A stretch of 48,138 nucleotides of DNA from Thermoproteota archaeon (GCA_027061785.1 JAMOVA010000049.1:1-48138); one strand, 5' to 3'; positions 7,282 through 11,882 are shown, counted from the stretch's first letter. Program-made: numbers and translations. The notes: generated by a model not told the origin, from the letters alone.

Positions 7282-8154
7282 TCAGATCTCCTTTCTCATC
7301 CACTTATACCTGCTTACTGGCTCGAAGCCAGCGGCCTCGAACGCCGCCCTGTACCTGCACCAGGTCTGCGTGACCACCTTGGGCACACCCATCTCATGGG
7401 CGAGGGTAACCGCCATCTCAGCAGAATCAAATATCTGGCCGAGACTGGCCCTCTTCGGTCCCCACATCAGGGCATAGAGGTGATCATCGTCCCTAGTGGG
7501 CTGGAACATTGCGAGGATGAGCTGCCACAGCCCCATTCTGACCTTCACGACCCTCGGCGAGGGAAGACCCACGCTCTCCCTGTCCCACAGCAGCTCCCAA
7601 AGGAGAGATGAAGGCCTCGTCTGTCCGGCGATCATCTGGGCGGCAGCGGGGAACTCCTCCCTAGTAGCCTCCTCCACCTTGGGCTGCTCGGGTGCGGGTC
7701 TCGCTGGCGCCTCCATAAGTACCTGAGAATCGATCTCCCGGAAGCCGAGGCTTTCAAAGAAGGGAAGGGCCTCAGCGGTCGGTATCGTATCCAAGTGGCG
7801 CATTCCCATTCCCCTAGCCAGATCCATGCACCTCTCAACGAGCTTCCTCCCTACGCCAGTTCTCCTCGCCTCCTCCTTTACCCACACCATCTGCAGGTAT
7901 GCGTGCTCACCCACGGGCGTGAGGAACCTCTCCGGTACGACCTCAGCCTCGCCAATCACCTTTCCATCCGATAGGGCGACCACTGCCTTGCCGCCGGAGG
8001 AGTAGAGGGCCTCCAAGTACCACTCAAATACTTGGGGATCGCCCCAGTATCCGCACTCCTTGATCCGGAGATCGAAGGTCATATCCTTCCAGTTGGGGCA
8101 GTGGATTGAGACGACCTCATCCAACAAATCGTGCCTGAACTCAACTATCTCCAA
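7282..8154 (-). CDS. GNAT-family acetyltransferase (double GNAT-like)
   Basis: 290-residue protein with a clear N-terminal GNAT domain: beta-strand AYLQMVWVKEEARRTGVG, where RRTGVG is the acetyl-CoA pyrophosphate-binding R/Q-x-x-G-x-G/A motif near residues 97-102. A second, weaker GNAT-like half (about 160-290) has no intact motif. Last gene of a four-gene operon; its ATG lies inside the end of the Sir2 gene (10 nt overlap). A linked acetyltransferase and Sir2 deacylase suggests opposing control of lysine acylation, as known for Pat/Sir2 on Alba in Sulfolobus. The target here is not known. Confidence 0.82.
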   Translation of the reverse strand: MEIVEFRHDLLDEVVSIHCPNWKDMTFDLRIKECGYWGDPQVFEWYLEALYSSGGKAVVALSDGKVIGEAEVVPERFLTPVGEHAYLQMVWVKEEARRTGVGRKLVERCMDLARGMGMRHLDTIPTAEALPFFESLGFREIDSQVLMEAPARPAPEQPKVEEATREEFPAAAQMIAGQTRPSSLLWELLWDRESVGLPSPRVVKVRMGLWQLILAMFQPTRDDDHLYALMWGPKRASLGQIFDSAEMAVTLAHEMGVPKVVTQTWCRYRAAFEAAGFEPVSRYKWMRKEI

Positions 8155-8918
8155 GAGAGATCCTCCTCCACCAGCCGGGCGAGCTCCCTGAAGATCTCTC
8201 CCGCCGGCCCTCTCAACCTGATGGTCGCCAAGCTACTTAAATTAGTTTCCTCGGGGTTCACTTCTACCAATATCTTCCCCTGCCTAGCCGCGTTGATGGG
8301 TAACAGGGCTGCAGGCATGACCACACCACTCGTCCCCACAATGAGGATGACTTCTGCCTCGGAGAAGAGCCTCTCCGCTCTCTCGAACTGGTCCATCGGA
8401 ACGGGCTCCTCGAACCACACAACGTCAGGCCTGAGAAGTCCTCCACATTCTCTACACCTCGGTAGATCTTCCTCCGGTATGTTCCCGAAACCTAGATCGA
8501 ACCGCCTGCCGCACACGGTACACCTGGTCCTCCATATCGATCCGTGAAGCTCTATGACCAGCCTGGAGCCAGCTCTCTGGTGAAGCCCGTCCACGTTTTG
8601 GGTCACCACGCCCATAAGCACACCTTTCCTCTCCCAGTCAGCCATTACCTTGTGGGCCCAAGTTGGCTCGGCCCTCGCGATTATGGACATCCTCCACTTG
8701 TACCACTCCCAGACCCTCTTGGGGTTGGACTCGAACGCCCGGGGCGTGGCCAACTCCTCCGGTCTGTACCTGTTCCAAAGCCCGTCCTTACCCCTGAAGG
8801 TCGGGATACCTGCCTCTGCTGAAACGCCAGCACCGGTGAACGCTAGCACCTTTCCGGAGTGCTCCTTGATCAAGCGGGCCGCTGAGGACAGGTCCTCGGG
8901 AGGGACGACCTCACTCAC
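8145..8918 (-). CDS. Sir2-family NAD-dependent protein deacylase
   Basis: 257 residues. NAD site GAGVSAEAGIPTFRG (29-43), TQNVDGLH (107-114), catalytic H125, zinc cysteines C133, C136, C155, C158 and the GTSG motif near 194. Tyr73 and Arg76 (WYKWR) match the YxxR pair that defines SIRT5/CobB-type (class III) sirtuins, so removal of acidic acyl groups such as succinyl is plausible besides deacetylation. Start GTG 8918, overlapping the radical SAM gene by 8 nt and the acetyltransferase by 10 nt. Expected to be cytoplasmic. Confidence 0.92.
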   Translation of the reverse strand: MSEVVPPEDLSSAARLIKEHSGKVLAFTGAGVSAEAGIPTFRGKDGLWNRYRPEELATPRAFESNPKRVWEWYKWRMSIIARAEPTWAHKVMADWERKGVLMGVVTQNVDGLHQRAGSRLVIELHGSIWRTRCTVCGRRFDLGFGNIPEEDLPRCRECGGLLRPDVVWFEEPVPMDQFERAERLFSEAEVILIVGTSGVVMPAALLPINAARQGKILVEVNPEETNLSSLATIRLRGPAGEIFRELARLVEEDLSWR

Positions 8919-10218
8919 CCAACCTCACCTCCGGCGGGGAGCTGGGGTACGGTCTCACCTCCGCCTCAAGGGGACACCCTCCCCTGCAGACTTGGAGCAG
9001 AGGGCAGGAGAGACACGCATCCCCTACGAAACGGAGCTCCCTGATCTTCAGGCACTCATCGTGATACCAGATCCTCTCCCAAGGATCCCTCAGGATGTGG
9101 CCCAGAACTTTGTAATGGCTCTGGCAGGGTATCACGGATCCATCAGGCTCCACCGCTAGGGTTATGCTGCATGCCGAGCAGAACTTCGGTCCCAAACCCT
9201 CGCCCATGGGATCCAACTCGCAGTACCGGGTCACCCCGTACCACCTGAAGTCCAGATCCAGCTCCGTGGTGAGCTCCTTGGCCTCAGCCAACACCTCCCT
9301 CATCTCATCAAAGGAGGGCTCCAGATCTCTCAGGTCCCTGCCCCTTCCGCTGTATATCAGCCTGTTCAGCGAGAACCCATCCACACCCAGATCCGCGACG
9401 AACCGGATCAATGATTCCACCGTGCTCATGTTCCTCCTCAGGAGGGTCGCATTGACGCTCACGTAGATATCGAACCTCAGCAGGTTCTTGAGCCCTTCGA
9501 CCGTCTCCTTCCAGCTCCCCCTCACCTGGGTTATGGAATCGTGAACCTCTGGATCGCTGGACTCCAAAGTCACCTGAGCGAAATCCAGTCCGGCCTCGAC
9601 TAACCTCTCAACCAGCTCCCGCGTCAGGAGCCTTCCATTCGTCACTATTCCCGAGACCATCCCGAGCCTCTGAGCTTCAGCCACCAGCTCCGGGAGGTCC
9701 CTCCTGAGAGTGGGCTCTCCACCGGTGAAAGTGACTTGAGGAACCCCCAGCTCGTGGAACTTCCTTATCACGGCCTTCCACTCATCCGTGCTCAATTCCT
9801 CCCGCTCGTCGGGACTGGAGGAGTAGCAATGGATGCAGGCGTTATTGCACCTGTATGTGAGGGCCAAGTCTACCCTGAAAGGGGCGCCGAGGGTTGATGG
9901 GTCAGGGAAGGCCGGTTTAAACCCCAGATCGGTTACAGGATCCTCGTACCCCTCAATGAATCTCCTGAGCTTACTAACTACCTCCTCATAGTGCCTCCTC
10001 ACCTCATCCTTCCTCATACCCCTGTAAATCCTCTTCAACTCCCTGTAAGCCTCATCCCATCCCTTACCTGAGAGGAAAGCCTTGGCGAAGACCGCTGCCG
10101 TGTAATTGAGGTACGCAACCCTCTGAGCATCCACCACGAGGGCGCCCATGGCTAGGGGATCTATGCGGAGCTGGATCCTCCTACCATTCAATTTGAACGT
10201 CAGGAATTCTCTCTCCAT
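8911..10218 (-). CDS. RRE (PqqD-like) + radical SAM + SPASM peptide-modifying enzyme
   Basis: 435 residues. Start ATG 10218 is chosen because it shares one base with the stop of the upstream gene (TGATG); a longer reading would run into the Cys-coding repeat of the neighbour. Residues about 22-90 look like a PqqD/RiPP-recognition element (a VVDAQRVAYLN strand followed by helices with DEVRRHYEEVVSKLRRF). The radical SAM core has C124, C128, C131 (CNNACIHC) and TGGEPT (165-170). The C-terminal SPASM region has C347, C350, C365, C402, C405, C411, C415, enough for auxiliary Fe-S clusters. RRE-rSAM-SPASM proteins typically crosslink Cys or other residues in peptides. The obvious substrate is the Cys-Ala tail encoded just upstream (inference). 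Confidence 0.88.
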   Translation of the reverse strand: MEREFLTFKLNGRRIQLRIDPLAMGALVVDAQRVAYLNYTAAVFAKAFLSGKGWDEAYRELKRIYRGMRKDEVRRHYEEVVSKLRRFIEGYEDPVTDLGFKPAFPDPSTLGAPFRVDLALTYRCNNACIHCYSSSPDEREELSTDEWKAVIRKFHELGVPQVTFTGGEPTLRRDLPELVAEAQRLGMVSGIVTNGRLLTRELVERLVEAGLDFAQVTLESSDPEVHDSITQVRGSWKETVEGLKNLLRFDIYVSVNATLLRRNMSTVESLIRFVADLGVDGFSLNRLIYSGRGRDLRDLEPSFDEMREVLAEAKELTTELDLDFRWYGVTRYCELDPMGEGLGPKFCSACSITLAVEPDGSVIPCQSHYKVLGHILRDPWERIWYHDECLKIRELRFVGDACLSCPLLQVCRGGCPLEAEVRPYPSSPPEVRLGE

Positions 10219-11882
10219 CAACCGACCCCACCTCCGGCACAGGCACAAGCGCAACTCACACACGCGCAGGCACATGCGCAGCTGACGCAGGCGCAGCTGA
10301 CTGATGCCGTCCTCCTAGCTCGAGGTCTGGAGGGGACGATGACCCTAGCCACTCTGTCGGCGAAGCCCTCGATGTTCCTGACGACGTTGGAGGAGACCTC
10401 TTCAACCGATCTGGCGATGGTGTCCGCTGCCTTCTCTATGTCAGGGATGACCGGGACATCCACCTTGCCACTAGGCGTCCCGGACGTATCGGGAGCTCTG
10501 GGCACCCCTGGAGCGGGGGGAATCGAGGTCCACCTACCCCTAGGCCACCATATCCACACATCGTCCAGCGGATAGGGATAGGAGGTAACGACCACCTCCC
10601 TCTTAGGCCTCCTCAATGCCCTTCTCAGGTTTCTCTCGAAATCAGGATCGGTCAACAGCCATGCCAGATTATCCCTGACGAGATCGAGCTTCTCATCGAT
10701 GGGAGCACTCTCGATCATCTCCCATATCGACCTCACCTTGCTGTCGTAGAAGGTGAGGGTCTCCCTCCTCGAGTACCCGGATAACTCCCTCTCCACCCTC
10801 CTGTGTATGAGCTTGATTACCTTAACCAGGCAATCCTGATCTAGAGATCCGTCCTCAGTCACACAGTCCAAGAACCTCCTCTCGTAGATCCTCAGGTTCC
10901 TCTCCGATCCCTCCAGCTTCCTCAGTTTGAGCGGGTCCAGGCTCTCCACCGCCAAGAATCCCTTCTCCACCAAGCTGGCTATGAGAACCGCTAAGATTCG
11001 CCCATAATTGAGCTTGGCTCCCTCTAACTTACGGAGGTAGGCAACTTCCGTTGGAGCCATGTTCTTGTTTGGTCCCAAGCTCTCCGCGAATATTTCGGGG
11101 GCCTGATAGGGGAGCTTCTCTATCCATGACTTGAACAACTTGACTATGGCCACGATGGAGATTACTATCGCTCCCAGAAACACGAGTCCGATAATGAAGC
11201 TGAGGTAGTCTGGAATCCCGCCACCCGCGGGTACCACCTTCTCGACGTAGTCCCTCGGAAAGGACACCCCTATCTCGAACTTGTAGTTGGGGGGAAGGTC
11301 CTTCCTCTCCCAGTAGAGGTATATCCTGCCGTCATCCAGCACCTGCAAGTTGTCGTAATCGGGCTGGTTCTTCACCTCTTCCTTGGAGACCCCAGGAGGT
11401 AGTATCACGAAGACTTGGAGCAGCTTGATGGGGGCATTGAACCATGAGGGTGTGAACATGAGGCCCGCATTGCCCGGGTTGGTCTCGTCCTCGTAGATGA
11501 AGTCCCTGAGCTCGACCTCCACCACGTAGGTCCTGCTCTCCCCCGGGTCTATGGGCTCGCTGGGTCTCATCTTCACCGCGTAGTACGAGCCCTCTCTGAT
11601 CTCCTCGGCATCGACCTCAACGGTTCTACCGTCGGGGAAGACCTCCTTAGCCTCTAGCACGCTGAAAGATGGGGAGGGCATCCCTATCGATACGTAGCGG
11701 GCTATGGTCCCCGACTTCACCTTTAGAGTGAGGTTGTACCTCAAGTACACCGTTCCTGAACGCTGTATATCTAGAATGACTTTTTCCCTCTCTATTTCAT
11801 ACACTATCTGACCGCTCGTGTTTACTAGAGGAATTAAGAGCGTGGAAATGACGAGGAATAGTAGAATAAGCCTTAACCTCAT
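10218..11882 (-). CDS. DUF2207-like membrane protein with C-terminal Cys-Ala repeat tail
   Basis: 554 residues: signal peptide/anchor (about 4-22), an extracytoplasmic beta-rich domain (23-224) and one membrane helix (about 225-250), then a predicted cytoplasmic region. This is the layout of DUF2207 (COG4907) proteins. Residues 527-554 are a low-complexity tail: Ser-Cys-Ala and Cys-Ala units with Cys at 530, 532, 535, 537, 539, 541, 544, 546 and 548, ending AGGGVG. Only C340 and C351 occur elsewhere. The tail precedes the stop that is fused by one base to the radical SAM gene, suggesting it is a maturation substrate. Function of DUF2207 is unknown; modification is inferred. Confidence 0.85.
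   Translation of the reverse strand: MRLRLILLFLVISTLLIPLVNTSGQIVYEIEREKVILDIQRSGTVYLRYNLTLKVKSGTIARYVSIGMPSPSFSVLEAKEVFPDGRTVEVDAEEIREGSYYAVKMRPSEPIDPGESRTYVVEVELRDFIYEDETNPGNAGLMFTPSWFNAPIKLLQVFVILPPGVSKEEVKNQPDYDNLQVLDDGRIYLYWERKDLPPNYKFEIGVSFPRDYVEKVVPAGGGIPDYLSFIIGLVFLGAIVISIVAIVKLFKSWIEKLPYQAPEIFAESLGPNKNMAPTEVAYLRKLEGAKLNYGRILAVLIASLVEKGFLAVESLDPLKLRKLEGSERNLRIYERRFLDCVTEDGSLDQDCLVKVIKLIHRRVERELSGYSRRETLTFYDSKVRSIWEMIESAPIDEKLDLVRDNLAWLLTDPDFERNLRRALRRPKREVVVTSYPYPLDDVWIWWPRGRWTSIPPAPGVPRAPDTSGTPSGKVDVPVIPDIEKAADTIARSVEEVSSNVVRNIEGFADRVARVIVPSRPRARRTASVSCACVSCACACACVSCACACAGGGVG
10221..10304 (-). repeat. Sequence coding the Cys-Ala tail
   Basis: Degenerate tandem units of TGCGCX/TGTGCX encode alternating Cys and Ala, in three blocks each opened by Val-Ser-Cys (2, 4 and 3 Cys), then Ala-Gly-Gly-Gly-Val-Gly. 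Codons vary (TGC and TGT, GCC/GCG/GCA/GCT), which argues for selection on the protein rather than a recent slippage product. Confidence 0.8.

Follow-up and report, generated by a model that had tools for sequence, protein, structure and literature searches.

Two overlapping genes in a 48,138-nucleotide stretch of archaeal DNA (GCA_027061785.1, JAMOVA010000049.1:1-48138; the whole stretch is hereafter the window, with positions counted from its first letter) are a genuine pair, conserved widely among archaea and, it seems, not described before. One of them, P1, encodes a membrane protein that ends in an alternating Cys-Ala tail. The other, P2, encodes an enzyme combining a recognition element for ribosomally synthesized and post-translationally modified peptides (RiPP recognition element, RRE), a radical S-adenosylmethionine (SAM) core and a SPASM domain. 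The two proteins likely function as substrate and maturase, with the chemistry of the tail being a prediction. We assign a probability of about 0.58 to the reading that P1 and P2 are a substrate-maturase pair in which the tail of a membrane protein is modified by radical SAM chemistry, most likely through thioether crosslinks. The genes are:

10218..11882, minus strand: P1, a 554-residue membrane protein with the Cys-Ala tail, putative substrate (open reading frame; homologues in three archaeal phyla)
8911..10218, minus strand: P2, a 435-residue RRE-radical SAM-SPASM enzyme, putative maturase (open reading frame, domain matches and fold)

The genome that contains the window is a 1.76 Mb draft, 98.5% complete. 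The organism is in all likelihood a korarchaeon from the genus of Ca. Korarchaeum, and the TACK origin proposed in an initial annotation, made from the sequence alone, was supported. Both open reading frames confirm that P1 and P2 have one base in common, the P1 stop codon TGA (10220-10218) and the P2 start codon ATG (10218-10216) forming TGATG. The initial annotation had noted this base and described P1 as fused to P2, which we correct to overlapping genes with no fusion.

The C-terminal end of P1 is SCACVSCACACACVSCACACAGGGVG. The protein contains 11 Cys (positions 340, 351, 530, 532, 535, 537, 539, 541, 544, 546 and 548), nine of which lie within the last 25 residues (hypergeometric P = 8e-12). 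The tail reads VSCAC, VSCACACAC and VSCACACA, followed by GGGVG, so that the previously noted counts of nine Cys in the tail and two elsewhere, the three Val-Ser-Cys-led blocks and the Gly-rich tip are all confirmed. Two features were delineated here:

10236..10295, minus strand: CACVSCACACACVSCACACA core, P1 residues 530-549 (97% mean pairwise identity; 49 nucleotide versions)
10221..10235, minus strand: GGGVG tip, P1 residues 550-554, whose codons double as the Shine-Dalgarno sequence of P2

Mean pairwise identities across 19 diverse homologues were 97% for the tail, 45% and 39% for the outer and inner domains of P1, 44% for the helix preceding the tail, 23-28% for the linkers and 22% for the transmembrane helix. 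When positions were counted in 49 distinct P1 proteins, close relatives included, seven Cys positions, five Ala positions and the VS pair were invariant in all 49. Fixation of Ala as well as Cys positions is as expected if both take part in the modification. Variation was limited to a few places, occupied by Ala, Val or His, which suggests that the Ala residues there are not obligatory partners. The core is encoded by 49 nucleotide versions, with a third-position identity of 0.39. It is therefore the protein sequence that is conserved, and a DNA-level repeat as the source of tail conservation was rejected, since serine is encoded by codons of both families in these versions. When searched with up to 3 mismatches, a degenerate codon pattern for CACVSCACAC matched the window twice and 100 shuffled versions of it not once. 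The core is still present in a P1 relative from a third archaeal phylum that is only 26% identical to the window P1. In the Gly tip, the codons GGA-GGT-GGG combine protein tip and ribosome-binding site in one stretch; the possibility that the tip is kept merely as a ribosome-binding site was rejected, because it is retained in homologues with no P2 gene downstream.

One P1 homologue (L075:2834-4597, plus strand) has a tail built of HSAC repeats, and its partner P2 is divergent (36% identical), as if tail and enzyme had changed jointly. A 405-residue coiled-coil-like protein is encoded between the two genes at this locus. In another homologue, L061, the tail is without one block.

The P2 sequence was searched against family profiles and its predicted fold was compared with solved structures. 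The following regions were assigned:

9943..10218, minus strand: RRE (PqqD-like) domain, P2 residues 1-92 (matches to NF033530, the TfuB1 RRE and PF05402)
9826..9849, minus strand: CX3CX2C (C124, C128, C131), radical SAM cluster, invariant in 17 homologues
8974..9222, minus strand: SPASM region, C333 to C415 of P2 (C347-X12-G-X4-C365 and CX2CX5CX3C invariant; PF13186, 1e-6)

The PqqD-family model NF033530 was matched by 10 of 12 homologous P2 N-terminal segments (E = 0.0031 for that of the window) and PF05402 by seven of the 12. The N-terminus also matched the solved RRE of TfuB1 (6.4e-5) and is modeled as strands followed by three helices. It had been proposed beforehand that the assignment would fall if the N-terminal ~90 residues were no RRE; the PqqD-family and TfuB1 matches gave no such refutation. 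The radical SAM core was recognized both by PF04055 (3.4e-32) and by fold. The SPASM region contains seven Cys that are invariant in the same 17 homologues. Of the SPASM motif, which consists of CX9-15GX4C, CX2CX5CX3C and one further Cys at the end, every Cys except this C-terminal one is invariant, and the C-terminal Cys is present in Bathyarchaeota members and absent in korarchaeal ones. Together with the RRE matches, the PF04055 and PF13186 matches and the invariant Cys support the original description of P2 as an RRE-radical SAM-SPASM protein with at least seven Cys in the SPASM domain. In both profile and fold comparisons, the solved enzyme closest to P2 is the sactipeptide maturase SkfB, followed by SuiB and PqqE. 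The anaerobic sulfatase maturase anSME is also near in fold, and the epimerase YydG/EpeE gave a weak profile match of 35 bits. Among the families listed, no NCBIfam equivalog cut-off was reached by P2.

The distribution of the two genes was determined in genome samples of the korarchaeal phylum (n=29), Thermoproteota (n=398) and the third archaeal phylum (n=115). Korarchaeal P2 orthologues scored at least 559 bits and the next radical SAM proteins at most 216 bits. In the korarchaeal sample 24 genomes contained both genes, one P1 only, none P2 only and four neither. The tail is canonical in 21 of these 24 pairs and of the HSAC type in one (G017), and in G005 and G021 P1 is truncated at a contig end; the tail is present in each of the 17 good genomes examined in the phylum. 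In Thermoproteota the tail pattern was found in 27 genomes and P2 in 30, with P2 present in every one of the 27. Relatives of P2 occur in six of the 115 genomes of the third phylum, each next to a relative of P1 whose tail has the same core. In total, 57 genomes have both genes, one has P1 only and three have P2 only, which bears out the expected co-occurrence of tail protein and radical SAM enzyme. The corresponding Fisher values (2e-4 and 7e-39) are too strong as given, since the genomes share ancestry. The pair is retained where the P1 and P2 genes lie apart in the genome, and a P1 tree built without the tail correlates with the P2 tree (r = 0.97). The initial annotation had named, as an observation that would count against the link, a radical SAM gene persisting beside a P1 homologue with a Cys-less tail; this was looked for in related operons and was not seen among the genomes surveyed. 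In G067 (L145:6618-8429, minus strand) frameshifts break both P1 and P2, through either joint decay or sequencing error. In two of the P2-only genomes (L186, L187), another radical SAM gene and a gene resembling aldehyde ferredoxin oxidoreductase are both found in the vicinity of P2.

The domain layout of P1 was taken from an AlphaFold model, in which a signal peptide and an outer domain precede a single transmembrane helix; the inner domain follows, joined by a disordered linker to a helix and the disordered tail:

11238..11810, minus strand: predicted outer beta-sandwich domain, DUF2207-like, P1 residues 25-215 (pLDDT about 90)
11121..11207, minus strand: predicted transmembrane helix, P1 residues 226-254 (model; oriented by its flanking Lys and the signal peptide)
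10617..11054, minus strand: predicted cytoplasmic (inner) domain, P1 residues 277-422 (model)
10338..10439, minus strand: helix, P1 residues 482-515, candidate recognition (leader-like) segment (better conserved than the linkers; helix in the model)

In fold, this outer domain is similar to ribophorin I and to M1 aminopeptidases. The tail is disordered and cytoplasmic in the model, in support of the earlier suggestion that the cytoplasmic tail is the substrate. The DUF2207 label given to P1 holds through its relatives only. The window P1 itself has no match to the Pfam family DUF2207 (PF09972) and most members of the P1 family score under its cut-off; the Bathyarchaeota homologue L043 reaches 25.7 bits (cut-off 24.4). 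In addition, a P1 profile finds, at 4e-11, a paralogue (L198 in G025) that is a clear DUF2207 protein (68.8 bits). This paralogue ends AAAAAGGGAGAGAGGGAG and is thus Cys-less and Ala/Gly-tailed. Its genome, G025, is the sole tail-bearing one in which no P2 was found, and the paralogue is a natural control.

Taken together, these data suggest the following mechanism. P1 would be anchored in the membrane with its DUF2207-like domain outside, one helix across and an inner domain, beyond which a flexible linker would carry the helix and then, still in the cytoplasm, the Cys-Ala core. P2 would use its RRE to grip P1, with helix 482-515 or the first part of the tail as the most likely contact. A 5'-deoxyadenosyl radical generated at the radical SAM cluster would then abstract hydrogen from tail residues, and the SPASM clusters may assist closure of thioether bonds between Cys sulfur and neighboring residues, in the manner of sactipeptide and ranthipeptide maturases. 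P1 would keep the product as a rigid tip, either crosslinked or metal-binding, on the inner face of the membrane; a rigid thioether knot, a metal site and a redox element are candidate forms.

That P2 acts on the P1 tail is highly probable, and it is the simplest reading because enzymes of this class modify peptides by way of an RRE, the tail combines flexibility and a cytoplasmic location with a fixed sequence, and the two proteins are inherited jointly. The nature of the bonds is less certain. Thioethers appear the most likely, by a little better than even odds, because SkfB is the closest enzyme, the tail is rich in Cys and thioether formation on Ala has precedent, as in Trn-beta Cys9-Ala25 (PMC8172795). 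Several points weigh against a P1/P2 substrate-maturase pair. Modification of the tail by P2 is what we infer and its chemistry what we predict, the topology of P1 is likewise predicted, and SPASM enzymes also form carbon-carbon bonds and oxidize or epimerize residues. Helix 482-515 is poorly retained in the third phylum. Three genomes, all drafts (G312, G453 and G379, Thermoproteota), have P2 and no P1 detectable by profile or pattern, and one draft genome (G025) has a P1 tail with no P2 found. The contigs of the three P2-only drafts are short, so that loss and missing sequence are indistinguishable, and the pattern tried revealed no other Cys-string protein in them.

The same observations bear on other explanations. 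The tail may be a plain thiol-rich ligand for Cu, Zn or an Fe-S cluster, metallothionein-like, with the effect of P2 being minor or directed at another target. Its CXC motifs, the His in variant tails and a zinc-ribbon partner gene adjoining P1 in 25 of 28 Thermoproteota loci fit such a role, but metal binding alone does not need intervening residues that are nearly all fixed as Ala, and the tail protein is co-inherited near-strictly with an RRE-radical SAM enzyme; we consider this reading rather improbable. Metallothioneins, moreover, are short, soluble and Cys-rich, while the P1 tail belongs to a large membrane protein. Somewhat less probable still is modification of the tail by P2 through a different radical reaction, that is D/L epimerization, carbon-carbon bond formation or Cys oxidation as in anaerobic sulfatase maturases. 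Alternating Cys-Ala recalls alternately epimerized peptides, and SuiB, PqqE and anSME are also close to P2 in fold; however, the sactisynthase SkfB is the best match, the resemblance to YydG/EpeE is weak and Cys is the dominant residue of the tail.

Finally, the pair might be a product of chance or of DNA-level processes, a repeat next to functionally unlinked genes. The tail is indeed repetitive, one block is missing in L061 and P2 occurs without P1 in three genomes. Yet the tail is conserved in three phyla with varied synonymous codons, the pair persists where its genes have moved apart, and a reversed control pattern of the tail had no match in the 398 Thermoproteota genomes. As far as sequence allows, this explanation is already contradicted and we regard it as very improbable.

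The P1/P2 pair was compared with known systems. In sactipeptide and ranthipeptide maturation (SkfB, AlbA, PapB and SCIFF maturases) an RRE-radical SAM-SPASM enzyme is likewise encoded beside a Cys-rich substrate, and P2, with its PqqD-like RRE and a linked precursor with a conserved core, has the attributes of an RRE-dependent RiPP-type maturase. In contrast to the short, leader-released peptides of those systems, the substrate here is the C-terminus of a membrane protein (554 residues in the window, 520-590 among homologues). The alternating Cys-Ala core and the archaeal origin are further differences, as is the fact that no protease or exporter (transporter) gene is conserved alongside the pair in the loci compared. 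The radical SAM-SPASM enzyme QhpD introduces thioethers into QhpC of quinohemoprotein amine dehydrogenase, a protein and not a short precursor peptide (PMC8172795). It is similar in having a protein substrate and differs in the substrate itself, which is no membrane protein, and in the Cys pattern. The nearest concept comes from a 2025 survey, in which bacterial TIGR04222 membrane proteins with Cys-rich C-termini were proposed as substrates of MNIO enzymes (PMC12452194). There too a RiPP-type enzyme is matched with a membrane protein; however, the enzyme is an MNIO, the tail is Ser/Gly-rich and predicted to be extracellular, and the proteins are bacterial, whereas the conserved neighbor of P1 is a radical SAM enzyme. 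The TIGR04222 model matched neither the window P1 nor any protein of its genome, and the inner domain of L075 matched it weakly (2.5e-4, 20.8 bits, cut-off 43). DUF2207 proteins resemble P1 in having an outer beta domain and an inner domain on either side of a transmembrane helix, together with a low-complexity C-terminus; P1 differs by its Cys-Ala core and a linked putative maturase.

None of the NCBI families searched describes the P1/P2 pair, and the literature searched contained no paper combining DUF2207 with radical SAM and none on an archaeal pair of this type. To the question raised at the outset, whether the pair had already been described, the literature and curated families searched thus returned no earlier description. 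Should the tail prove to be modified, the peptide chemistry of radical SAM enzymes would extend beyond small secreted peptides to lasting modification of membrane proteins across archaea. Tentatively, the pair may represent an ancient archaeal modification, present in three or more phyla, by which an invariant tail becomes a permanent crosslinked cofactor or metal site that is part of the protein itself and serves a housekeeping role. Because the target is short and almost fixed, a single peptide and a single enzyme would suffice to test the tail chemistry directly. The pair also offers a handle on the function of uncharacterized DUF2207 and TIGR04222 proteins, in parallel to the MNIO modification proposed in bacteria.

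On the minus strand, P2 is followed by a sirtuin-like gene (8145-8918, 8-base overlap with P2) and an acetyltransferase-like gene (7282-8154). Both were rejected as parts of the system, since this gene order is conserved inside the genus only. A viral origin of the pair was rejected because viral contigs are without the tail pattern, and viperin-type defense because PADLOC matches were confined to the common radical SAM core. Upstream of the divergent radical SAM gene of G021 lies the gene of a membrane protein with CPTG repeats and 34 Cys, incomplete at a contig end (L076:3854-4786, minus strand). It was considered as a candidate second substrate but is absent from the corresponding place in G017.

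The zinc-ribbon partner gene of Thermoproteota encodes a membrane protein of 111-144 residues with a C-terminal zinc ribbon that mostly ends EEPKW or EEPLW (L041:3948-4295, L136:6107-6466, L155:6029-6364 and 22 more loci). It is usually located immediately upstream of P1 and overlaps it. Korarchaeal P1/P2 pairs showed no such gene nearby. P1 of the third phylum itself has a zinc-ribbon-like insertion in its inner domain (L207, L210, L212), which ties the zinc-ribbon protein and P1 together.

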